From positions 1 to 9,630 of the forward strand of contig JAUIFW010000034.1 in the NCBI GenBank assembly GCA_030430105.1: a stretch of 9,630 bases of DNA, read 5' to 3'. Source of the DNA: a bacterium. GTDB taxonomy: Bacteria > Patescibacteria > Gracilibacteria > 1-14-2-50-48-13. The notes beneath the pieces were generated by a model. The model was not told the DNA's origin and did no database searches. It worked only from the letters and a program-made list of their open reading frames with translations. Made by a program: the position numbers and the translations under genes. Shown here in pieces: positions 1 through 9,182 of this stretch; within the stretch, counting starts at the first letter, position 1; each line of letters begins with the position of its first letter.

Positions 1-1509
1 TCAGGTGGACGCGTTGAAATATCAAGTGTTTCTGAGGATAGAGATGATAAGATTTCAGGATCTGCAAAGTCCAAAATCTCAACGTTGATGAGTGAGACGT
101 TTTATGATGAGTCGGACCCTGCGTATACTGCAGATAAGGAGAAGGTTCACAAGCAGATGCGTGATGCACTACTTACAGAGCTTGCAGTACATTTGAAGGA
201 AAGACTATTATCCTCTCCTTCAACTGATCGGACTGAGCTTCTGAGAATTCTTGGAGATGATCCTTCTTCGGATAAGACCATTACCGTTGCCCTTCTTATT
301 GAAAAGAAGAGTCGTTTGGGTAGGTTCCCAAAGCTCAAGCATGCACTAGATCATTACGATGAAAGTAATCTGGCAGCAAGTACCGCTCTTCAAAAGCTTG
401 CGGATACACTTAATGAGCATGCCCAGGTACAAGCATCCACTGAGGAACAAATGACGCAGGCAGCAAAGGAGGCGACTGAGGGAGATGATTCTTGGTATGG
501 TAGATCGAAGGAGGGGCTTAAGAAGTTTGCTGCGCAATCAGGTAAGGAGCTTCAGAAAACTTTGGATAATCCATTTGGTATTATTGATAATCCTCTTGCT
601 GGTGCGAGTGTACTTGCTGCGGTTATGCTTCTTTTTCTTCCAAAGGATTCGAATAGTGGTTTTGTGAAACTATTGCGGGGACTTGGCTGGGCTGGTGTTG
701 CTAACCTAGGTCTCAAGGCCCTTTGGCCTGGTATGCGCCATAGTTTGTTTGCACCTGGTGATGCGGCCAAGGGGCTTGGAACAAGAGCCTCTCAGTGGAT
801 GCAGTGGCTAGGTGGTGAAGGAAGCATGTCCTCCAGAGAGATGGAGCAATTTGTTCAGTCTGGTGATATGGAGAAGGTTGAGAAAACGCTCAGTTCTCAT
901 TTGGACAAAAGAGACTTGCGCTTTATTGCGCTTGCAGCAGATGCAAAACTCAGCAATATCGCCCATGGTTCCTCTGCGGTGAAGGTGGATATGAAAGATA
1001 TTGAGTTTTTCCCAAATGATCAGGGTCTAGATAAGCTCTATAGCCAGGGAGAAATTGATATGATTGAGGCGACCAAGCGACCTACTAGTGAGCTTGCTGC
1101 GGTGTACAAGCGTATGTTTGATATTGTTGAACTTGGTACGGGTCAGCCTAGGGTCAAGAAGGCTCTGCTGGCTCCTCAGAATCAAGCGATGGTACAATAC
1201 TACCTTCCAGGTAATCCCACGATTACGCAGGCGGTGGTGGATGGTATGTCGCCTACCCTACGGTCGTATTTATTTGTGAAGCTTCGCTACCATGCACAAG
1301 GTGGAAAGAATGTGATGCTACAACGATTACAGAACTTCAATACCTCTTCTCTTTCTGCCGTGGATAGACAGCGGTTTCAAAAGGGAGTTGATGAGGCAAA
1401 GAATCGATTGAAACCAAATCCAAATCTCAGCGAGATGCTGGATATGGTTGCGAATGATAATGATCCGTTGCTTGATATGAATTGGGCGCTTGAGAAAGTA
1501 GAAGGGTAG
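1..1509 (+). CDS. Uncharacterised protein, 5' end outside the window
   Basis: The reading frame has no stop from base 1 to the TAG at 1507-1509, giving 502 visible residues. TTG at 85 and ATG at 88 are possible internal starts, but the codons before them are open and unremarkable, so the gene most likely begins upstream and I annotate it as 5' partial. I do not recognise a family. The protein is mostly charged and helix-prone. It has a hydrophobic patch at about visible residues 197-213 (nt 589-640) and a second, weaker one at about 228-244, which could be one or two membrane segments or a buried helical hairpin. The downstream part (about residues 275-500) is soluble-looking, with many Leu, Lys and Asp. 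No catalytic motif or signal peptide is visible, though the true N-terminus is not in view. It converges on the SPFH gene across a repeat element. Confidence that it is a real gene is high; no function is assigned. Confidence 0.8.
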   Translation, partial: SGGRVEISSVSEDRDDKISGSAKSKISTLMSETFYDESDPAYTADKEKVHKQMRDALLTELAVHLKERLLSSPSTDRTELLRILGDDPSSDKTITVALLIEKKSRLGRFPKLKHALDHYDESNLAASTALQKLADTLNEHAQVQASTEEQMTQAAKEATEGDDSWYGRSKEGLKKFAAQSGKELQKTLDNPFGIIDNPLAGASVLAAVMLLFLPKDSNSGFVKLLRGLGWAGVANLGLKALWPGMRHSLFAPGDAAKGLGTRASQWMQWLGGEGSMSSREMEQFVQSGDMEKVEKTLSSHLDKRDLRFIALAADAKLSNIAHGSSAVKVDMKDIEFFPNDQGLDKLYSQGEIDMIEATKRPTSELAAVYKRMFDIVELGTGQPRVKKALLAPQNQAMVQYYLPGNPTITQAVVDGMSPTLRSYLFVKLRYHAQGGKNVMLQRLQNFNTSSLSAVDRQRFQKGVDEAKNRLKPNPNLSEMLDMVANDNDPLLDMNWALEKVEG

Positions 1510-1510
1510 G

Positions 1511-1529
1511 CACAGGCCTTTGGCCTGTG
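1511..1529 (+). other. GC-rich 8-bp hairpin after the left-edge gene
   Basis: CACAGGCC at 1511-1518 pairs with GGCCTGTG at 1522-1529 around a TTT loop, starting one base after the stop codon of the upstream gene. It is followed by AAAGATTAAAT instead of a T-run, so it is not a standard intrinsic terminator on the plus strand. It may protect the mRNA 3' end or help the larger adjacent hairpin to terminate transcription. It has a counterpart at 1618-1632 at the end of the convergent gene. Confidence 0.6.
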
Positions 1530-1617
1530 AAAGATTAAATCGCTAAAGACTAAAGATTAAATTCTAGAGTATGCTCTATTTAATCTTTAGTCTTTAGTAT
1601 TTAGTAATTTAATCTTT
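1530..1617. repeat. Long AT-rich inverted repeat with heptameric arms
   Basis: The outer arms AAAGATTAAAT (1530-1540) and ATTTAATCTTT (1607-1617) are exact reverse complements. The inner arms at 1543-1562 and 1578-1597 are a perfect 20-bp inverted repeat, extended towards the loop by AGAG/CTCT (1566-1569 with 1574-1577). The arms are built from 7-mers. The right arm reads ATTTAAT (1578-1584), CTTTAGT (1585-1591), CTTTAGT (1592-1598) and ATTTAGT (1599-1605). On the opposite strand these are ACTAAAT, ACTAAAG, ACTAAAG and ATTAAAT. The left arm carries three matching units at 1542-1562. The element fills the space between two convergent genes, where a bidirectional terminator or a REP-like dispersed repeat would be expected. 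Confidence 0.85.
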
Positions 1618-1632
1618 CGATGCGTAGCATCG
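1618..1632 (-). other. 6-bp hairpin after the SPFH gene
   Basis: CGATGC (1618-1623) pairs with GCATCG (1627-1632) around a 3-nt loop. It lies just past the TAG stop of the minus-strand SPFH gene (1635-1637). Read on the minus strand it is followed by AAAGATTAAAT, the same arrangement that follows the plus-strand gene at 1511-1540. Both convergent genes therefore end in a GC-containing hairpin plus the same AT-rich 11-mer. Confidence 0.55.
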
Positions 1633-1634
1633 TC

Positions 1635-2402
1635 CTATTCTATGGTGACAAACGGTGTTGCTCCACCTGTCACCTTTGGCATTACGCCGTTCCATTTCTC
1701 GATTGCTCGTAGCTGCAAGAGTTCTGGGGTGAGCTCTTGCTTTTGTAGTCTGAGCGCTTCTGCCTCAGCCTTTGCTTGCTCGATTTTTTGCTGTGCCTGT
1801 ATTTTTACCCGCTCAAGTTCCCACTTCTCACGAAGGGCTTGCTGCTCAGCCGTTTGCTTTTCCTCGATAGCCTTGTCGAATTCTGGAGAGAAGGAAAAGT
1901 CCACGATGGATACCTCATCGACCACAATATAGGTCTCGGAAAGTCTACTGTTGAGTATCTCCGTAATCGTATCCTTTACTTCCCTTCTTTTCGTGATTAG
2001 TTCTTCTGCCGTAAACTGTGCTGTGGATGCTTTCACGGCCTCTTCGATCGCTGGCTTGATAATCTTTGTCTCATAGTTGAGTCCAATTTCTCGATACAGG
2101 TTGTTTACATCTTCTGGATCCGGGAAGAAGTTGATTGCTACTACGGTAGTGACCGATTGTAGGTCTCTTGATGCTGAATTAGAGGAGTACTCTACCTTTT
2201 GTGTCTTTACATCCACATTTACAATCCTCTGGATAAATGGCATGCGAAGGTGAATTCCCTCTGCGAGAATATCTTCAGATACTACACCGAGCGTTACTTC
2301 TACACCTCGTTCTCCTGGGTTTACAATACGCAGTGAAGCAAAGAGTAGTATGAGAATCAGGGCACCTAGGATGATGCCTCCTGACATGAGAAAATTTTTC
2401 AT
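1635..2402 (-). CDS. SPFH/prohibitin-family membrane protein
   Basis: 255 residues. The N-terminus is a single hydrophobic segment at about residues 8-24 (GGIILGALILILLFASL), a membrane anchor. It is followed by RIVNPGERGVEVTLG, typical of the start of a prohibitin-like SPFH (band 7) domain, which runs to about residue 185. A charged region rich in Ala, Glu, Gln and Lys at about 175-225 is a predicted coiled coil. It ends in LLQLRAIEKWNGVMPKV, a tail common in bacterial prohibitin homologues. Such proteins form ring-like membrane assemblies and often associate with membrane proteases such as FtsH or organise membrane domains; the partner here is unknown. No NfeD or protease gene lies beside it. 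The ATG at 2402 has no Shine-Dalgarno; its leader contains ACCCCC. It is divergent from dnaX and convergent with the left-edge gene. Confidence 0.9.
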   Translation of the reverse strand: MKNFLMSGGIILGALILILLFASLRIVNPGERGVEVTLGVVSEDILAEGIHLRMPFIQRIVNVDVKTQKVEYSSNSASRDLQSVTTVVAINFFPDPEDVNNLYREIGLNYETKIIKPAIEEAVKASTAQFTAEELITKRREVKDTITEILNSRLSETYIVVDEVSIVDFSFSPEFDKAIEEKQTAEQQALREKWELERVKIQAQQKIEQAKAEAEALRLQKQELTPELLQLRAIEKWNGVMPKVTGGATPFVTIE

Positions 2403-2533
2403 CGAATGGGGGTTATATAGATATACAATACATCTCTATTCCTCTTTGACAAGTATTGCTTCAGACTTGTCTATCTGCTTGATGCTCACTGCTTCCTGTA
2501 TTAGGGTGTTGATGTACTCTTAACGCCTGTTAC
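2403..2533. promoter_or_regulatory. Divergent intergenic region, SPFH gene / dnaX
   Basis: 131 nt between two divergent starts must hold both promoters. On the plus strand a perfect TTGACA lies at 2446-2451, but no good -10 follows at 16-18 nt (closest is CTATCT at 2471-2476, spacer 19). On the minus strand TTGTCA (2452-2447) overlaps the same bases, with TATTGT (2430-2425) 16 nt downstream, ahead of the SPFH start. The two -35 candidates would therefore share bases and their polymerases would compete. These assignments are weak. Confidence 0.3.
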
Positions 2534-3877
2534 GTGTCCCACACTACGCTCTATCGCAAATATCGACCTCAGTGTTTTGATGAGGTACTTGGACAGGAAC
2601 ATGTGACCCAAACCTTGCGTAATAGTTTGAAAAAAGCTCGTGTGACGCACGCATACCTTTTTTCAGGACCGAGAGGGACGGGGAAAACTTCTACTGCCCG
2701 CATCCTTGCAAAGGCACTTCTCTGTGAGTCCCCTACGGAGGCTATGGAGGCCTGTGGATCGTGCTCCTCTTGCGTGGATGTGATGCAGGGTGGGCATATC
2801 GATTTGATAGAAATCGACGCTGCTTCGCATCGAGGTATCGATGAAATGCGTGCGCTTCGTGAGGGTGTGCAGTTCACTCCTCATCGAGGGAAAAAGAAGG
2901 TATATATTATCGATGAGGTGCACATGCTTAGTAAGGATGCCTCCAATGCGCTCCTTAAGACTCTTGAGGAGCCACCTGCGTATGTGCATTTTATGCTCGC
3001 AACTACAGAGCTTCATAAAATTTTGGACACGATTGTGAGTCGGTGTCAGGTGTTTCACCTACAACCCGTCTCGGCTGAAATTATCGCTGCGCATGTGCAG
3101 GAGGTTGCGAAGAAGGAAGGACTTGATGTGGATGCGCATCGCGGTAAGGAGGTTGCAGGACTAGCTCATGGAGGAATGCGAGATGCACTCTCTTTATTGG
3201 AGCAAGTACTTGCGGGTACAGAAGGGCAAGGAGATCCTGCTTCGCTCGATACTTTTGTTGCATGCTTTTTGGATGCGTATGAACAACATGAATCTCTTGA
3301 ACGCTTGTATGCGGTGCTGGATCAGGTGAAAGCACATGGCCTTGGGCATGATCGTTTTCTCACTGAGCTTCTTTCTCAGGCATTTATACGTCTCCGCGCA
3401 TCTTTGGCCTCTGGTGCTGGGAATTCGCGTTTAACAGGGTTGCTTCGATTGATTCAAGAGTCTCTACCCGAGGCAAAGTATGCAACTATGCCCCTGCTAC
3501 CTTTTGAGGTGCGACTTGCTACGGCGGAGCTATCTGATGCACCGACTACCCATGTCAGTACACCTACATCTAAGCAAACAGTTGACCAGTCTCCGCGGAA
3601 GCCCACAGTTTTAGATAGTGCGCCCACCACTGCAGAGGTGCGTAAGCCTGCTGCTCTACTGTCTACAAAAGCTCAGGCACAGGCTTCGGATGTGGATGTC
3701 AAGCCTGCGGCTGCTACTTCTGAAACCCTTGATAAAGCACCTTTGAAACCTGCTCCTACACCTAAGCCCTCAGTAAAGTCTGAGGAGCCAGCTCCTGAGC
3801 GCCCTGCTCCACCGGAGTCAGTTTCACCATCCGTAGAAGATATAGCTTCCTTGTTTGGAGGCTCTGTAGAACCTTAA
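2534..3877 (+). CDS. dnaX: DNA polymerase III clamp-loader subunit DnaX (gamma/tau)
   Basis: 447 residues from a GTG start; the frame has a stop shortly upstream and no better start, and the N-terminus (SHTTLYRKYRPQCFDEVLGQ) is the family's opening. It is the AAA+ ATPase of the clamp loader, which places the sliding clamp on DNA. Visible motifs: Walker A GPRGTGKT (45-52), zinc-module cysteines C64, C74, C77 and C80, Walker B VYIIDE (123-128) with EEPP at 145-148, the SRC arginine-finger motif (169-171), and sensor-2 GGMRDALSLLEQ (213-224). A helical collar domain spans roughly 240-340. After that comes a low-complexity Pro/Ala/Lys/Ser/Thr linker (about 345-430) and a short end, VEDIASLFGG. 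The protein is clearly shorter than E. coli tau (643 aa) and lacks a recognisable DnaB/alpha-binding region, so it resembles a gamma-like form. No Shine-Dalgarno is visible. fmt follows 9 nt later, almost certainly co-transcribed. Confidence 0.96.
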   Translation: MSHTTLYRKYRPQCFDEVLGQEHVTQTLRNSLKKARVTHAYLFSGPRGTGKTSTARILAKALLCESPTEAMEACGSCSSCVDVMQGGHIDLIEIDAASHRGIDEMRALREGVQFTPHRGKKKVYIIDEVHMLSKDASNALLKTLEEPPAYVHFMLATTELHKILDTIVSRCQVFHLQPVSAEIIAAHVQEVAKKEGLDVDAHRGKEVAGLAHGGMRDALSLLEQVLAGTEGQGDPASLDTFVACFLDAYEQHESLERLYAVLDQVKAHGLGHDRFLTELLSQAFIRLRASLASGAGNSRLTGLLRLIQESLPEAKYATMPLLPFEVRLATAELSDAPTTHVSTPTSKQTVDQSPRKPTVLDSAPTTAEVRKPAALLSTKAQAQASDVDVKPAAATSETLDKAPLKPAPTPKPSVKSEEPAPERPAPPESVSPSVEDIASLFGGSVEP

Positions 3878-3886
3878 TCCCAGACT

Positions 3887-4831
3887 ATGCCCTACCGCGT
3901 TGTATGTATGGGGACGCCAGACTTTGGTGTCCCAAGTTTTGAAGCCTTGATACAAGACCCACGATTTGATGTGGTACTTTTTGTTTCGCAACCTGCTAAG
4001 CCACAGGGACGCAAGGGTGAGGTGAAGCCTACGCCAGTCATGGCGCTTGCTGAGCAGTATGCGATTCCTTGCATTACACCTAGTTCCCTCAAGAGTGAAG
4101 AAGTCCTGAGCAAGCTAGAAGAGACTCAGGCAGATTTCTTTGTAGTGATTGCCTATGGAAAAATTGTGTCACAGCGCGTACTCGATATGCCAAGCATCGC
4201 GGCTATCAATGTTCATGGGTCTCTCTTGCCTAGACATCGAGGGGCATCACCGATACAGGCTTCTTTACTTGCTGGTGATGAAAAGCTTGGAATATCCATC
4301 ATGCGCATGACTGCTGGCATGGATGAGGGGCCGTTTTACAGTAAGCATTCTATATCCAACGCTACTTCACTTACTGCTGGAGAGGCTTTTGAGCGCTTAT
4401 CTGCTCTCAGTGCAGAGGTGCTTCCACAGGCACTCTGTGATATTGCAGAGGGTCAGGAGGAAGTGGCTCAGAACGAAGAACTCGCTACGTATTGTGGAAA
4501 GCTGCGTAAGGAGGAGGGAGAACTTGATTGGGAGCTTTCTGCCGATGAAATTCTACGAAGATGGCAGGCATATACGCCGTGGCCTAGCGTGTATACGTTC
4601 CTCGAAGGAAAACGTGTGAAACTGCTACAGCTCGAGCACTCTGATCGCAAGGGACTACTTCCAGGGCATCTGGAAGAGCATGAAGGAAAACTTTACGTCG
4701 GGACTGGCAGCGCTCCGCTCTGCATTGTTCGTCTTCAGAAGGAAGGTGGAAAGGCTATGACTGCTCGGGACTTTTTGGCGGGTCTGCAGATTGCGCCTCA
4801 CGAGCTAGTGTTTCGCCCTCAATCATCATAA
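3887..4831 (+). CDS. fmt: Methionyl-tRNA formyltransferase
   Basis: 314 residues, the usual family length. It formylates Met-tRNAfMet with 10-formyl-tetrahydrofolate before translation initiation. The N-terminus MPYRVVCMGTPDFGVPSFEAL is the typical Rossmann-like start. The folate-binding/catalytic core shows INVHGSLLPRHRGASPIQ, with Asn108 and His110, and MTAGMDEGP with Asp146; these match the Asn-His-Asp catalytic set of formyltransferases. The C-terminal domain ends with the conserved pattern KAMTARDFLAG (from about residue 289), implicated in tRNA binding. The gene starts 9 nt after dnaX and is probably translated from the same message; no Shine-Dalgarno is seen before the ATG. Its last 77 nt are antisense to the end of miaA. 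Stop TAA at 4829-4831. Confidence 0.97.
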   Translation: MPYRVVCMGTPDFGVPSFEALIQDPRFDVVLFVSQPAKPQGRKGEVKPTPVMALAEQYAIPCITPSSLKSEEVLSKLEETQADFFVVIAYGKIVSQRVLDMPSIAAINVHGSLLPRHRGASPIQASLLAGDEKLGISIMRMTAGMDEGPFYSKHSISNATSLTAGEAFERLSALSAEVLPQALCDIAEGQEEVAQNEELATYCGKLRKEEGELDWELSADEILRRWQAYTPWPSVYTFLEGKRVKLLQLEHSDRKGLLPGHLEEHEGKLYVGTGSAPLCIVRLQKEGGKAMTARDFLAGLQIAPHELVFRPQSS

Positions 4832-5726
4832 CTTGATACTGGGTCCTAAGTCTGCGAAGCCAGGTTTCTTGTCGCTTTGCGTACTTTCTCGCACCTCGCT
4901 TAGTGAGCTCTATGGCTTTTTCCAGCGATATCTTCCGTTCGATATATTGAAGGCACTCTCTGTATCCAATACTGCTCATAGACTCGAGATCCTTGGTATA
5001 TCCTTTGCTTCTTAGCTCGTGCGTTTCTTTGACGATGGATGGCTTCGCATCAAACATGTGTTGATGTCGTTTGTTGATCCTAGTTTTTAGTGTGGATCGA
5101 TCCCATTCAATAGCAAGTACCTTCGCTTGGTACTGACTTTTTTTCTTCCCCTTTTGTTCTGACTTTGGTCTCCCAGTTACTTCATATATTTCCAAGGCTC
5201 TAAGGAGATAGCGTAGGTTGTGCCTTCCCAATGCTTTCGCTTCTGCAGGATCAACTTCTTCTAAGCGTTGGTATACAGCTTCTGTGCCCACCTCTTCTGC
5301 CCAGCGTTCTAATTTGCTTCGTATGCCTTGATCTGACTTTGGACCAAAGGACAGGTCGAAGAGAATACTCTCAAGATAAAGGCCTGTTCCCCCTGCTAAG
5401 ATAGGTAGATTTCCTCTTTCTTTGATAGCTTGTATAGCAGCGTCTGCATGCTTTCTGTAATCAGCCACAGTAAATACTTCGTCTGGATCGCATATGTCAA
5501 AGAGATGATGAGGAATATCTCCCATCTCTTCCTTTGTGGCTTTTCCTGTTCCTATATCCATCCCCGTATAGATTTGCCTTGAGTCCATGTTGATAACCTC
5601 TCCACCCAGGGCCTTTGCTAGCTCAATACTGAGATGCGTCTTGCCTGAGGCTGTGGGCCCATAGATACAGAGGATTTCCGGACTTTCTTGTTCTACCTTG
5701 CTGATGATGCTCGAGAGATAGCTCAT
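4755..5726 (-). CDS. miaA: tRNA dimethylallyltransferase
   Basis: 323 residues. MiaA transfers a dimethylallyl group to N6 of A37 in tRNAs that read codons beginning with U. Visible motifs: P-loop GPTASGKT (23-30), DSRQIYTGMDIGTGK (48-62) with the catalytic Asp48, GGTGLYLESIL (from 112) with Thr114, EWDR, and SIGYRECLQYI in the C-terminal half, followed by the basic KRGARKYAKRQETWLRR helix. The ATG overlaps the rlmD stop as ATGA (5726-5723), so translation is probably coupled to rlmD and the two form one minus-strand operon. The last 25 residues (about 299-323), including the Asp/Pro-rich end, are encoded opposite the conserved 3' end of fmt. This tail lies beyond the usual family end and is probably a secondary extension. 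No miaB is in view. Confidence 0.96.
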   Translation of the reverse strand: MSYLSSIISKVEQESPEILCIYGPTASGKTHLSIELAKALGGEVINMDSRQIYTGMDIGTGKATKEEMGDIPHHLFDICDPDEVFTVADYRKHADAAIQAIKERGNLPILAGGTGLYLESILFDLSFGPKSDQGIRSKLERWAEEVGTEAVYQRLEEVDPAEAKALGRHNLRYLLRALEIYEVTGRPKSEQKGKKKSQYQAKVLAIEWDRSTLKTRINKRHQHMFDAKPSIVKETHELRSKGYTKDLESMSSIGYRECLQYIERKISLEKAIELTKRGARKYAKRQETWLRRLRTQYQVMMIEGETLAREAQSADPPKSPEQS

Positions 5727-7201
5727 TCTTTTGTCTCGAGAAGAACAACCGTTTCGACATGATAGGTTTGAGGGAACATATCTACACCCTGTACCTTTGT
5801 AATCTTGTACTTCTTTGCAAGGAACTCTAGATCTCTTGCAAGTGTTGTAGGGTTACACGAGACATAGACGATTTTTCTTGCGCGGAATTTTGGAAGTAAT
5901 TGCAGCGCCTTTGGGTGCATTCCACCTCGTGGTGGATCGATGATTACCGTATCTGGCCGCTCGAAGAGTAACGAGAATGCGTCCTTTTCTACCTTTCCTG
6001 AAATGAATTCAATATTGTGGATATTGTTGAGTTTTGCGTTGGTCTTTGCGTCTTCTACGGCATGGGTGTTTTCCTCGAGAGAAAAGATCTTCTTTGCCTC
6101 CTTCGCTAGATACATACCTATGGTTCCGGTTCCAGAGTAGAGGTCGAGTACCACTTCATTGTCTCCGATTTGTGCAAAGTCTTTTACTACATCATAGAGC
6201 TTTTCAGCTCCCTTGGTGTTGGTCTGGAAGAAGGAGAAGGCAGAGATCTTGAACATAAAGTTTCCGATCTTATCGATGATGTAGTCTCTACCATGAAGGA
6301 CATATGTTTCATCTGCCTTGGCCACATCCGCCTTGGAACTATTTACAGACCAAAGTATTGATTCCATCTTGAAGTCCTCCTTTTCTAGAAGCCTAAGCTC
6401 ATCCACGAGTGGCTCCCAGAACTCTCTTGTATAGTCCTCCGTAGTGTTTGTGATGAGGTGTACCATCACTTCCCCTGTGTGTACTCCATAACGAACAACG
6501 AGATGTCTCAATAATCCTTCGTGTGTTCGTACATTATATGCAGGGAGTCCCTTTTTCTGGATGAAGTGTTTGATGGTTTCAACGACTCCTCGCAGACCAT
6601 CGTGCATTAGCATGCAGTGATCTACGTCGACGATTTTGTAGAAGCTTCCTGAACCATGATAACCTAGGTATCTTCCTTCTTCTTCTACCGCCTTCGTGGA
6701 TGCCTCCCCTTCAGCTGCTTCAGTAACTTCTACTGCTGCCTTTCTTTTGCTGTGATAGTTTGCCTGATCCGTGTATGGCACTACACCAAAGGAAAGCTCG
6801 ATTTTGTTCCTGTATCCAAAGCTCTCTGGGCTTGGTATTATTGGTGGAAGCTCTGGCACATTGGTGATTTTACCGATGTGCGTAAGGCTTTCTTGTATAA
6901 ATTGCTGCTTATATTCCATCTGCTTTTCTATGGCTAGATTCTGCCATTTGCAGCCTCCACACACTCCAAAGTAAGGACATGGAGCAGCTTGTTCGTCTGG
7001 TGATGCCTTTAGGGTTTCTAGCTTTCTTGCGTGGCCTACGCCCTTCTTTTTCTTGGTAACAACCACCTTGCACTCTTCTCCTGGTATAGCTTGCTGCACA
7101 AAGAGAATACTTTCTCTTTCCTCCTCTTTCACTCTTGCTATTCCTAGGCCCTTATAGGCCATCTTGTTGATTTGTACATCGAATACCTGCCCTACCTTCA
7201 T
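5723..7201 (-). CDS. rlmD: RNA m5U methyltransferase, RlmD/TrmA (RumA) type
   Basis: 492 residues from the ATG at 7201. It makes 5-methyluridine in RNA using SAM, most likely in 23S rRNA (RlmD or RlmCD type), although the exact site cannot be read from sequence. In this numbering a TRAM domain occupies about 1-60 (MKVGQVFDVQINKMAYKGLG). The 4Fe-4S ligands are C75, C81 and C84 in CPYFGVCGGCKWQNL, plus C196 in VDVDHC. The Rossmann methyltransferase domain follows, with FFQTN, LDLYSGTGTIG, IIDPPRGG, the catalytic Cys449 in VSCNPTTLARDL, and the general-base Glu in HVETV near the end. An Ala/Glu-rich stretch at about 152-176 looks like an insertion relative to typical RlmD. A GTG at 7288 would add 29 residues, but that extension runs through a plausible promoter and into a hairpin arm, so I prefer 7201. 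The stop is TGA, overlapping the miaA start. Confidence 0.93.
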   Translation of the reverse strand: MKVGQVFDVQINKMAYKGLGIARVKEEERESILFVQQAIPGEECKVVVTKKKKGVGHARKLETLKASPDEQAAPCPYFGVCGGCKWQNLAIEKQMEYKQQFIQESLTHIGKITNVPELPPIIPSPESFGYRNKIELSFGVVPYTDQANYHSKRKAAVEVTEAAEGEASTKAVEEEGRYLGYHGSGSFYKIVDVDHCMLMHDGLRGVVETIKHFIQKKGLPAYNVRTHEGLLRHLVVRYGVHTGEVMVHLITNTTEDYTREFWEPLVDELRLLEKEDFKMESILWSVNSSKADVAKADETYVLHGRDYIIDKIGNFMFKISAFSFFQTNTKGAEKLYDVVKDFAQIGDNEVVLDLYSGTGTIGMYLAKEAKKIFSLEENTHAVEDAKTNAKLNNIHNIEFISGKVEKDAFSLLFERPDTVIIDPPRGGMHPKALQLLPKFRARKIVYVSCNPTTLARDLEFLAKKYKITKVQGVDMFPQTYHVETVVLLETKE

Positions 7202-7226
7202 GACATCAAATATGAAATATGGGCCT

Positions 7227-7254
7227 ACTATACGGTGGAATTGCGGTTTTGCAA
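7227..7254 (-). promoter_or_regulatory. Putative sigma-70 promoter of rlmD-miaA
   Basis: On the minus strand TTGCAA (7254-7249) and TATAGT (7232-7227) are separated by 16 nt. The -10 matches 5 of 6 consensus bases and the -35 matches 4 of 6. Transcription would start near 7220, giving a leader of about 20 nt to the ATG at 7201. This placement would put the alternative GTG at 7288 outside the transcript. Confidence 0.5.
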
Positions 7255-7272
7255 CGGGTAAAACTGGTGAGT

Positions 7273-7349
7273 ACTGTTCACTGATCACTCTTCACTGTTC
7301 ACAGTCATACATTCAAGCAGTGATCTGTGATTAGTGATCAGTGAACAGT
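7273..7349. repeat. 77-nt inverted repeat of five heptamers per arm
   Basis: The arms at 7273-7289 (ACTGTTCACTGATCACT) and 7333-7349 are perfect 17-bp reverse complements. The whole element divides into eleven 7-nt units. The left arm holds five units at 7273-7307: ACTGTTC, ACTGATC, ACTCTTC, ACTGTTC, ACAGTCA. A 7-nt spacer TACATTC follows (7308-7314). The right arm holds five units at 7315-7349, whose reverse complements, read from the outside in, are ACTGTTC, ACTGATC, ACTAATC, ACAGATC, ACTGCTT. It lies upstream of both rlmD and dnaG, so it could act as an operator, a hairpin in the leader of either transcript, or a dispersed REP-like element. Confidence 0.85.
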
Positions 7350-7457: not shown

Positions 7458-9182
7458 ATGGCTGATATCGTAGAAGACATCAAGAATCGTCTCGACATCG
7501 TAGAAGTGGTGTCGGACTATGTGCAGCTCAAGAAGGCTGGAAGGAACTTCAAGGCACTTTCTCCTTTTAAGAAGGAGCGTACGCCCTCTTTTGTGGTTTC
7601 TCCTGATAAGCAGTTGGCTTATTGCTTTTCTACCCAGAAGGGTGGAGACATGATTCAATTTATCATGGACGTGGAAAATGTGGATTTCAAGGCTGCTCTT
7701 GCTCATCTTGCTCAGAAGGCAGGTATAGAGTATGAGCCTACAACTGCAAAGGGACCGCAGATACCAAAGGATGTAAAGGAAGGTATGTATTTGGCTCATA
7801 CGATGGCAACGGAATTTTATGCAAAAGCGCTCGCTCAGGACGCCAAGGCAAAGGCATACGTGGACGGGAGAGCTCTTACGGAAGAGACCATAGCTACCTT
7901 TCAATTGGGCTATGCTCCTGCGTCAGGATCTAGTCTATGGAAGCACTTGCAAGCGAGCTTCGGATCTAGACCTGGATTACTCCTTGAGGCTGGTCTCCTT
8001 AGTAAGAAGCAAGGGTATTATGATAAGTTTCGAGATAGGATTATTTTCCCTATCCATAATACCATTGGGAATGTGGTCGCTTTTGCTGGGCGTGTACTTG
8101 GGGATGGTACGCCGAAGTACCTCAACTCACCTGAGTCACCCATCTACAATAAAAGTGCATTGGTGTATGGACTTCACCTTGCTAAGGAGCATATTCGCAA
8201 GGAAGGATGTGTGATTATTGTGGAAGGATATATGGATGTTATCTCTGCGCACCAGGCTGGTATACGGAATATTGTTGCCACCTGTGGTACGGCGCTTACT
8301 GCAGATCAGGTCCGGGTGCTCAAGCGCTTTGCACCTGTCATGTATTTTCTCTTTGATGAGGATGAAGCGGGTTGGCAGGCTACACTTCGCAATGGAGAGC
8401 TTGCGCTCAAGGAAGAGGTCGAAGTGCAGGTAATTAGTTTGGGTACGGATGCCAAAGATGTGGATGACTTTGTTCAGGAACACTCATTGGAGGAGTTCAA
8501 GGAGCGTATGAGTCAAGCGAAGCCACTCTTTGATTATGTCCTGCAGAAATATCAGCAGACTGCCCCGCATACGCCGGATGGGCAGATGCGTGTAGTACGC
8601 TTGCTACAACCACTTCTTCATGCAGTACCTAGCCCCCTTAAGAAGCAGCTTTTTATACGGCAATTGGCTCTCGAACTAGGAGTAGAAGACGCGATTTTGG
8701 TACAGGAGATGGATAGAAAACCTGCACCAAGGATTCATACGGAAGTGTCTGGCCCGGCTACTAGCTTTACCCCTGAAGCACTTATCCTTGGTGTGTTACT
8801 TCAGTATCCTTCTCTGACAGAGGAGGTGCGTGAGGTTGTGTCCTACTTGAGTACGGAGGATCCACTTGTACTTGAGCTACGAGGGTTCATCCTCAGCGAG
8901 GTTGACTTTGATGGTGAAATCTCTGAGGAAGTGCTTGCGAGCCTTTCTGAAGATGTAAGAAAGCGTATTGGCCTTCTCACCGTATATGTTTCTGAACATG
9001 CTTTTGCAGAGACAGAGGAAGAGGCGAGGAAAATACTGAAGCAAAAACTTAAAGTAGCCTTGATGCAGGAGCAGGCTCGTGTTCTGAGGAAGCTTAAACA
9101 AGCTGAGCAGCAAAAGGACTTTCGAGCCTGGAAAGAGCTCTTCGATCGAATGTCTAAAATGCAAGCTTTTTTGAAAGAATAG
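7458..9182 (+). CDS. dnaG: DNA primase DnaG
   Basis: 574 residues, the normal family length. DnaG makes RNA primers at the replication fork. The N-terminal domain (1 to about 95) has the fold signature NFKALSPFKKERTPSFVVSP...KGGD, but the CHC2 zinc ligands are mostly gone: the four positions read Ser35, Lys38, Cys56 and Thr59, with the normal spacing kept. The RNA polymerase core follows, with YLNSPESPIYNKS (about 217-229) before the TOPRIM domain. TOPRIM shows VEGYMDV with Glu256 and FDEDEAG with Asp300 and Asp302, the metal-binding acidic residues, so catalysis looks intact. The region from about 430 to 574 is helical and corresponds to the helicase-binding domain. The ATG at 7458 has no Shine-Dalgarno; its leader is pyrimidine-rich (ends TTCCTCCT). 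rpoD follows after 137 nt, the classical dnaG-rpoD order. Confidence 0.97.
   Translation: MADIVEDIKNRLDIVEVVSDYVQLKKAGRNFKALSPFKKERTPSFVVSPDKQLAYCFSTQKGGDMIQFIMDVENVDFKAALAHLAQKAGIEYEPTTAKGPQIPKDVKEGMYLAHTMATEFYAKALAQDAKAKAYVDGRALTEETIATFQLGYAPASGSSLWKHLQASFGSRPGLLLEAGLLSKKQGYYDKFRDRIIFPIHNTIGNVVAFAGRVLGDGTPKYLNSPESPIYNKSALVYGLHLAKEHIRKEGCVIIVEGYMDVISAHQAGIRNIVATCGTALTADQVRVLKRFAPVMYFLFDEDEAGWQATLRNGELALKEEVEVQVISLGTDAKDVDDFVQEHSLEEFKERMSQAKPLFDYVLQKYQQTAPHTPDGQMRVVRLLQPLLHAVPSPLKKQLFIRQLALELGVEDAILVQEMDRKPAPRIHTEVSGPATSFTPEALILGVLLQYPSLTEEVREVVSYLSTEDPLVLELRGFILSEVDFDGEISEEVLASLSEDVRKRIGLLTVYVSEHAFAETEEEARKILKQKLKVALMQEQARVLRKLKQAEQQKDFRAWKELFDRMSKMQAFLKE

Follow-up and report, generated by a model that had tools for sequence, protein, structure and literature searches.

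Among long repeats, those with 7-nt units are reported to be the commonest class in the majority of genomes surveyed (Mrazek 2007, as related in PMC4679880 and PMC4692102). Here we describe two intergenic elements, E1 and E2, in a 9,630-nt stretch (positions 1 to 9,630 of contig JAUIFW010000034.1, assembly GCA_030430105.1; hereafter the window) from a member of the Gracilibacteria within the Patescibacteria (lineage 1-14-2-50-48-13). As far as those accounts go, the over-represented heptanucleotide repeats resemble E1 and E2 in their 7-nt tandem units and scattered taxonomy, but form direct tandem arrays, whereas in E1 and E2 the arrays are imperfect and occupy the two arms of a hairpin. The TAACTGA repeats of Beggiatoaceae, Cyanobacteria and Bacteroidetes (MacGregor 2015, PMC4679880) are also intergenic heptads; rotating TAACTGA gives ACTGATA, which differs by a single base from the ACTGATC unit of E2, and TAACTGA-repeat indels between two Cyanothece strains are mostly in 7-nt increments. 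According to the sections of that paper concerned with them, these repeats differ in having one favoured unit, in being direct (with one indirect in the main genome) and in lying mostly just before start codons. Exact TAACTGA is absent from the written-out units of E1 and E2, and neither element takes the position near a start codon, E2 lying 109 nt before the dnaG start and E1 between stop codons. The GGGAATC and GGGGA(C/T)T repeats of Xanthomonas and Nostoc (Rehm et al. 2015, PMC4692102) are mostly intergenic heptads as well, and some Xanthomonas heptad pairs are inverted and could form stem-loops, as E1 and E2 could; these repeats are described there as G-rich and quadruplex-forming, and E1 and E2 are neither.

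The P6b stem of the cyanobacterial trnL intron offers another parallel, with two unlike 7-nt motifs that each pair into a hairpin and with length changes by whole motifs, although these heptads are placed by the relevant passages of PMC4476775 within a group I intron of a tRNA gene and not between genes. A survey of DNA structure in prokaryotes (Huang and Mrazek 2014, PMC4060949) found inverted repeats over-represented, chiefly between genes, but simple sequence repeats generally suppressed, and its passages on these subjects do not treat heptad arms. REPINs share with E1 and E2 the form of small, dispersed, palindromic intergenic hairpins, but are described in the corresponding part of PMC3116915 by conserved repetitive extragenic palindrome (REP) ends and linkage to RAYT transposases, a 7-nt period being no part of the definition; the same source mentions small dispersed repeats (SDRs). 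The first-pass annotation of this DNA, which knew of no described family with such a definition, was thus wrong for the heptanucleotide part, as the texts of PMC4679880, PMC4692102 and PMC4476775 indicate. Heptads as such are not new; less has been described of the inverted-arm form, in hairpins that disperse and step by whole heptads. Neither dispersed hairpins with heptad arms nor heptads in Patescibacteria were found in the open-access literature, a search outside which most subscription papers lie. The small dispersed repeats of Nostoc, the subject of work by Elhai et al. in 2008, are reportedly very small and mobile-looking.

We read E1 and E2, at what we judge to be about an even chance, as small dispersed palindromic non-coding elements whose arms of tandem heptads change by 7-nt units. 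What the window itself directly shows is the hairpins, their 7-nt period and two arms of E1 that differ by one heptad. E1 pairs in an outer register of 33 nt (88% complementary) and an inner register of 20 nt (100%), the two lying about one heptad apart since the right arm (TTAAATT ACTAAAT ACTAAAG ACTAAAG ATTAAAT) is one unit longer than the left (TTAAATC GCTAAAG ACTAAAG ATTAAAT), and its fold shows an 8-nt bulge. The arms of E2 are 30 nt long and 87% complementary, and consist of ACTGTTC ACTGATC ACTCTTC ACTGTTC on the left and, reverse-complemented, ACTGTTC ACTGATC ACTAATC ACAGATC ACTGCT on the right. The units of both elements are imperfect; in three arms the tandem period of 7 extends over 4.3 to 5.4 copies, and in the left arm of E1 over 2.7. 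The four highest-scoring lag-7 stretches in the window are precisely these four arms (0.77, 0.73, 0.73 and 0.57), and the maximum over 200 dinucleotide shuffles was 0.67, which three arms exceed and the E1 left arm (0.57) does not. The best 30-nt hairpin arm in the window has 26 pairs (E2), against 18 once E1 and E2 are excised and at most 21 in 60 shuffles. Predicted RNA folds are strong for E1 (-38.2 kcal/mol, z -7.65) and E2 (-39.9 kcal/mol, z -6.47), on both strands (z -5.8 to -10.9), and the elements fold strongly as DNA too. The earlier observation of 7-nt units in both hairpin arms is therefore borne out beyond shuffles for both elements, bar the E1 left arm taken alone. That the units mostly start with ACT is true of E2 (4 of 4 on the left, 4 of 5 on the right) but not of E1 (1 of 4 and 3 of 5). 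E1 and E2 have period and architecture in common, and the anchor only in part.

The genome-wide class was surveyed in the genomes of relatives, the window being the only DNA examined from its own genome. By DnaG the closest relative sampled is G059 (445.7 bits, 40% over residues 5-569; the next scored 383.2 bits), the only genome of its order in the sample; the DnaG search covered the class to which the Peregrinibacteria record L005 (G002) belongs and gave a match in 184 of 192 genomes. These matches would place the window in the Patescibacteria, towards the Peregrinibacteria/Gracilibacteria. Genomes were picked partly because they carried matches; the phylum samples are an even selection from a larger group. 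The G019 stretches, two G010 stretches and L160-L179 (orientation and pairwise-similarity sets) were picked knowing their matches; C1-20 of G001, the G011 stretches and C1-20 of G338 were picked irrespective of match positions. Gene calls in relatives are open reading frame (ORF) calls made for this analysis, and counts for four successive ACTNNNN units (ACTNNNN x4) refer to overlapping four-unit windows, not to arrays.

In these relatives the same architecture, built from other heptads, recurs in many places, with scattered copies, whole-heptad changes of the arms and presence or absence between species. Small heptad hairpins are shown to be dispersed in G001 and in G010/G011. Among 47 heptad hairpins there were 108 similar pairs at E<1e-4, and in several aligned pairs the similarity stops near the arm ends. 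One G001 element was found at 17 or more places including its own (at least 88% over at least 84 of 111 bases, with 40 of 76 candidates scored). Its 31-nt loop is kept (at least 28 matches) in 19 of 22 stretches with flanks that are unlike as judged by eye, and its arm lengths are mostly 20, 26-27, 33-35 and 41 nt and 31-33, 38-39 and 46 nt, which are heptad steps. The sister species G010 and G011, which are 95-98% identical over much of one stretch, differ in the presence or absence of heptad hairpins: L156 of G010 (13524-13697) holds an insertion of some 175 nt in which imperfect terminal inverted repeats (ACTT.../...AAGT) enclose a heptad hairpin, and positions 17872-17874 of L149 (G011) are an empty site matching this insertion. 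From their architecture only, we infer that E1 and E2 are members of such a dispersed class.

Three further observations concern heptad hairpins. Many copies of the dispersed element of about 100 nt in G001 (L288-L302, L122, L125) continue on both sides into a Shine-Dalgarno-like GAGG, so that it could provide a ribosome site to a gene behind an insertion. In other cases a heptad hairpin is nested in a larger repeat, the ends of which resemble GGGACGGTTCA and TGAACCATCCC (L113, 5038-5103; L121, 1152-1236; L001, 12395-12481). The 5' arm is purine-rich in 35 of 47 heptad hairpins, copies that are not independent; E1 agrees (0.70) and E2 is opposite (0.30).

The heptad hairpins could instead have been born where they stand, without mobility, slippage growing a heptad array in place and template switching in the hairpin making its inverted copy. 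We consider this possible, though clearly the less probable course. It would suit the different units of E1 and E2, the differences between arms by whole units and the frequency of one-armed arrays, and polymerase slippage over a 7-nt contact has been proposed (Mrazek 2007, in the accounts of PMC4679880 and PMC4692102). The copies in G001 and G010/G011 speak against it, with their common loop and arms, differing flanks and presence or absence, as does the want of the mirrored unit order expected from a template switch. Such mirroring between arms was persuasive by eye but failed a permutation test, in which 1 of 39 hairpins had mirrored variant units at p<0.05 (E1 0.32, E2 0.83). That variant units are mirrored no more than chance would allow speaks against the idea that one arm was recently copied, in inverted form, from its partner.

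Period-7 arms made up both of the two long hairpins in the window, 20 of 24 in G001, 4 of 8 in G010, 4 of 15 in G011, 1 of 5 in Alkaliphilus pronyensis and 4 of 18 in 79 mixed loci. An inverted partner within 130 nt accompanied all three period-7 arrays of the window, 25 of 48 in G001 and 10 of 22 in 80 mixed loci. When the partner was sought around a different array from the same set, the control counts were 0 (window), 1 (G001), 1 (mixed), 1 (G010/G011), 0 (G338), 7 (Alkaliphilus) and 0 (G059/G118); at a random place they were 1, 1, 0, 1, 0, 0 and 0 in the same order. The hairpin form is a trait of particular lineages.

Direct kin of the two elements were sought by DNA matches in the phylum, with at most three candidates scored per listed genome. 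E1-like matches occurred in 9 of 286 phylum genomes, and the eight loci viewed comprised two hairpins, four one-armed arrays and two places without an array. One of these hairpins (L317, G395) has 41-nt arms of ACTAAAG and ACTAATG heptads, and the other (L320) is in G427. E2-like matches to heptad arrays were found in 3 of the 286 genomes, the best in G384. Against plasmids, E1 matched 2 records at E up to 1 and E2 matched 13 at E up to 10, weakly (best 0.07), 6 of the 13 being cyanobacterial; the three cyanobacterial matches that were opened lay in or beside heptad arrays of ACTGTTC, ACTGTTT or AGTTATC, the last being the complement of the TAACTGA class. E2 had no match among phage records.

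Several points weigh against dispersed elements as the source of E1 and E2. A second copy is known for neither, the searchable DNA of their own genome being the window, and the E2-like matches viewed were one-armed (ACTGTTC arrays in G384). Dispersal was seen in a distant lineage, whose DnaG is about 42% identical to that of the window. The closest relative sampled, G059, is without any ACTNNNN x4, and 289 kb of G059 and G118 (189 kb of it from G059) contained no long hairpin. The inverted partner is rarer elsewhere, accompanying 12 of 66 arrays in G010/G011, 2 of 12 in G338, 0 of 38 in Alkaliphilus pronyensis and 0 of 1 in G059/G118. Within the dispersed sets, L291, L297 and L305 break the 7-nt steps and L304 ends at a contig edge; the empty site in G011 is a single one judged by eye, and no target-site duplication was established. 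The scarcity of mirrored variant units also belongs on this side, since the two arms need not have been copied from one another in inverted form.

The prominence of period 7 does not depend on any anchor. In 2.7 Mb of DNA, an anchor-free count gave 190 arrays with period 7, compared with 2, 3, 12, 21, 14, 15, 3 and 12 at periods 4, 5, 6, 8, 9, 10, 11 and 12. ACTNNNN x4 was present in 152 of 286 phylum genomes (62 for the spacing-8 version), in 30 of 50 genomes of mixed bacteria (14 at spacing 8) and in all 8 genomes from the class to which G001 belongs; the mixed bacteria held 1224 matches at spacing 7 and 251 at spacing 8, 228 of the latter in two genomes. By chance about 0.3 matches would be expected per 2.4-Mb genome of even composition. 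The proposal of a genome-wide family defined by period and anchor thus stands in relatives for a sequence-diverse period-7 class, often with inverted arms, but not with ACT as its definition. As a defining anchor ACT was rejected: ACT or AGT is enriched, being found in 73 of 190 period-7 consensus heptads against 47.6 expected (permutation), and 117 of the 190 arrays are without either. Multi-frame stop cassettes (7 not being a multiple of 3) were likewise tried and rejected, stops on at least one strand occurring in 152 of the 190 consensus heptads against 155.2 expected.

The enrichment bears on the idea that a protein reads AGT or ACT at a fixed spacing of 7 or 8 nt with free filler, whether a regulator, an uptake factor or an RNA-processing factor. 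In some arrays ACT or AGT is constant and almost all filler varies (G338:C18 and G365:C8, and octamers in G399, G317 and G304), and 38 of 102 distinct heptad classes contain ACT or AGT against 25.9 expected (standard deviation 4.4). The constant-ACT arrays were found via an ACT search, so this constancy is built in and counts against such a signal, as does the majority of arrays without ACT or AGT. TCA at spacing 7 is moreover almost as common as ACT (915 against 1224 matches in 50 genomes, ACTTTTC-like arrays scoring twice), and the octamer form appeared in just 1 of 17 (G317) and 2 of 24 (G399) unselected codirectional gaps. We regard a protein-read signal as improbable. The scan suggested in the first-pass annotation (three ACT followed within 100 nt by three AGT, all at spacing 7) returned one match in the window and none in shuffles, but missed E1 and most heptad hairpins; E1 cannot satisfy the pattern, so the single match can only be E2. 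In either order the pattern occurred twice in G001, five times in G010/G011 and once in G338, and not in the mixed loci, G019 or G059/G118. The order was AGT-ACT in all eight matches from relatives and ACT-AGT in the window; at other spacings there were none, bar one at spacing 6.

Octamer arrays were noted in their own right. Mostly of the form (T)AAGTNNN with varying filler, they lie between genes at L324-L335 (G304, G399, G317, G357, G409, G428), loci that were chosen via matches and with rough gene calls. In nine one-armed cases (L326-L330, L332-L335) AGT is on the coding strand of the neighbouring gene, and several of these arrays begin at its stop codon; counter to this rule, L336 (G076) and L338 (G138) have ACT there. 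Octamer arrays such as ACTCCATT occur in G035:C325 (L343) and G053 (Chloroflexi, L072), with inverted arms in L343, so that the hairpin architecture also exists at period 8. In the 20 kb of L346 (G399), period-7 TAA runs were seen in 7 of 24 codirectional gaps (shuffle mean 1.4) and AAT runs in 8.

The coordinates of the elements and their surroundings are collected in Table 1.

Table 1. Positions of E1, E2, adjoining small hairpins and flanking genes in the window
Feature	Position	Strand	Evidence
Gene before E1, 502 aa, running off the window edge, without a Pfam match	1..1509	+	ORF and Pfam scan
Small perfect hairpin, 8 bp, loop TTT, abutting the start of E1, 1 nt past the upstream stop	1511..1529		-14.4 kcal/mol, z -3.67
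E1 left arm, GAAAGATTAAATC then GCTAAAG ACTAAAG ATTAAA	1529..1561		Inverted repeat, 33 nt, 88%; period 7 over 1543-1561
E1 centre (outer register), partly paired in the predicted fold	1562..1585		Inverted repeat and fold
E1 right arm (outer register); 1578-1597 pairs perfectly with 1543-1562	1586..1618		Inverted repeats, written-out arms, fold
Small perfect hairpin, 6 bp, loop GTA, abutting the end of E1	1618..1632		-6.7 kcal/mol, z -3.04
Band_7/SPFH protein gene, convergent with the preceding gene across E1	1635..2402	-	ORF and Pfam scan
TRAM gene of the tRNA (uracil-5-)-methyltransferase type, transcribed away from dnaG with E2 between them	5723..7201	-	ORF and Pfam scan; putative start at 7201
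E2 left arm, ACTGTTC ACTGATC ACTCTTC ACTGTTC AC	7273..7302		Inverted repeat, 30 nt, 87%; period 7, 4.3 copies
E2 loop, 17 nt	7303..7319		Inverted repeat
E2 right arm, reverse complement ACTGTTC ACTGATC ACTAATC ACAGATC AC	7320..7349		Period 7, 4.6 copies over 7318-7349
DnaG primase gene, start 109 nt beyond E2	7458..9182	+	ORF and Pfam scan

E1 sits in a 125-nt gap (1510-1634) with a stop codon on either side, and E2 is intergenic provided that the ATG at 7201, one residue ahead of the TRAM match, is the start of the methyltransferase; a mechanical ORF with its start at 7288 would overlap E2. The claim that such elements lie only between genes accordingly holds for E1, holds for E2 with the start at 7201, and is not strict in relatives, where 40 of the 190 period-7 arrays fall within ORFs of at least 90 codons. 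At L310 (G335) and L231 (G338), heptad arrays lie within apparent coding frames that stay open throughout, by the ORF calls. Rfam gave nothing above gathering score for the window, three microRNA-family matches (E 0.079 to 0.3) being far below it.

We also weighed whether the elements terminate transcription or act as 3' stem-loops that stabilise mRNA, in which case the 7-nt period would be a side effect. Their folds are strong, E1 almost fills its convergent gap, and in codirectional hairpins, read on the coding strand, G-T mismatches outnumber A-C mismatches 16 to 7. The imbalance is larger still for A-A against T-T (30 to 3), and the G-T excess may therefore stem from repeated families; with genes ignored, 47 hairpins have 19 G-T and 19 A-C mismatches. 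No terminator-like site (GC-rich stem with a T tract) was listed at E1 or E2, and E2 lies between divergent genes. The orientation of the 35 hairpins placed, of 40, was as expected, with 3 convergent (4.6 expected), 4 divergent (5.6) and 28 codirectional (24.8); four hairpins within ORFs and one at an edge were left out of this count. With orientation neutral and no such site at either element, the terminator role once suggested did not find support, and we think a terminator or 3' stem-loop function has a low probability.

A transposase origin had also been raised, and REP/REPIN-type elements moved by a Y1 (RAYT) transposase would be small, palindromic, dispersed and intergenic in the same way. 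Over 50 genomes the rank correlation between heptad matches and Y1_Tnp per Mb is weakly positive (0.26, p 0.07). However, G001 has 271 heptad matches and one broken, sub-threshold Y1_Tnp match, five genomes with 3 to 11 heptad matches have zero Y1_Tnp, and G054 has 15 Y1_Tnp and zero heptad matches. A Y1-type transposase is therefore not needed in relatives, as G001 and the five genomes without one illustrate. None was present among the seven window proteins scanned, and the rest of that genome could still encode one. Mobilisation of this kind seems to us very improbable.

If E1 and E2 are dispersed elements of variable heptad number, they would have arrived as such elements or would descend from them. 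Their arms would gain and lose 7-nt units via slippage or unequal exchange, a process that would preserve period and pairing while the sequence of the units drifts between elements, and E1 and E2 would be tolerated in the gaps between genes. If transcribed, they would form strong stem-loops, and a secondary effect on mRNA ends is plausible in the case of E1, given how nearly it fills the convergent gap. A bolder version, which we consider rather unlikely, would have miniature palindromes across phyla set by unit length, scattering, their arms of 7-nt (in some lineages 8-nt) units rewritten unit by unit; some Patescibacteria would keep only AGT/ACT constant with filler free, and a dedicated or unusual polymerase, recombinase or binding protein would set the step.

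As to why the unit should be 7, the discussions in PMC4679880 and PMC4692102 offer only slippage, as an idea. Hairpins that are dispersed and change by whole heptads, together with occupied and empty sites in sister genomes, would allow the gain and loss of units, and any travel, to be measured directly. Repeat finders that rely on similarity would split or overlook a class whose defining feature is its period, so that it is probably under-annotated in small-genome phyla.

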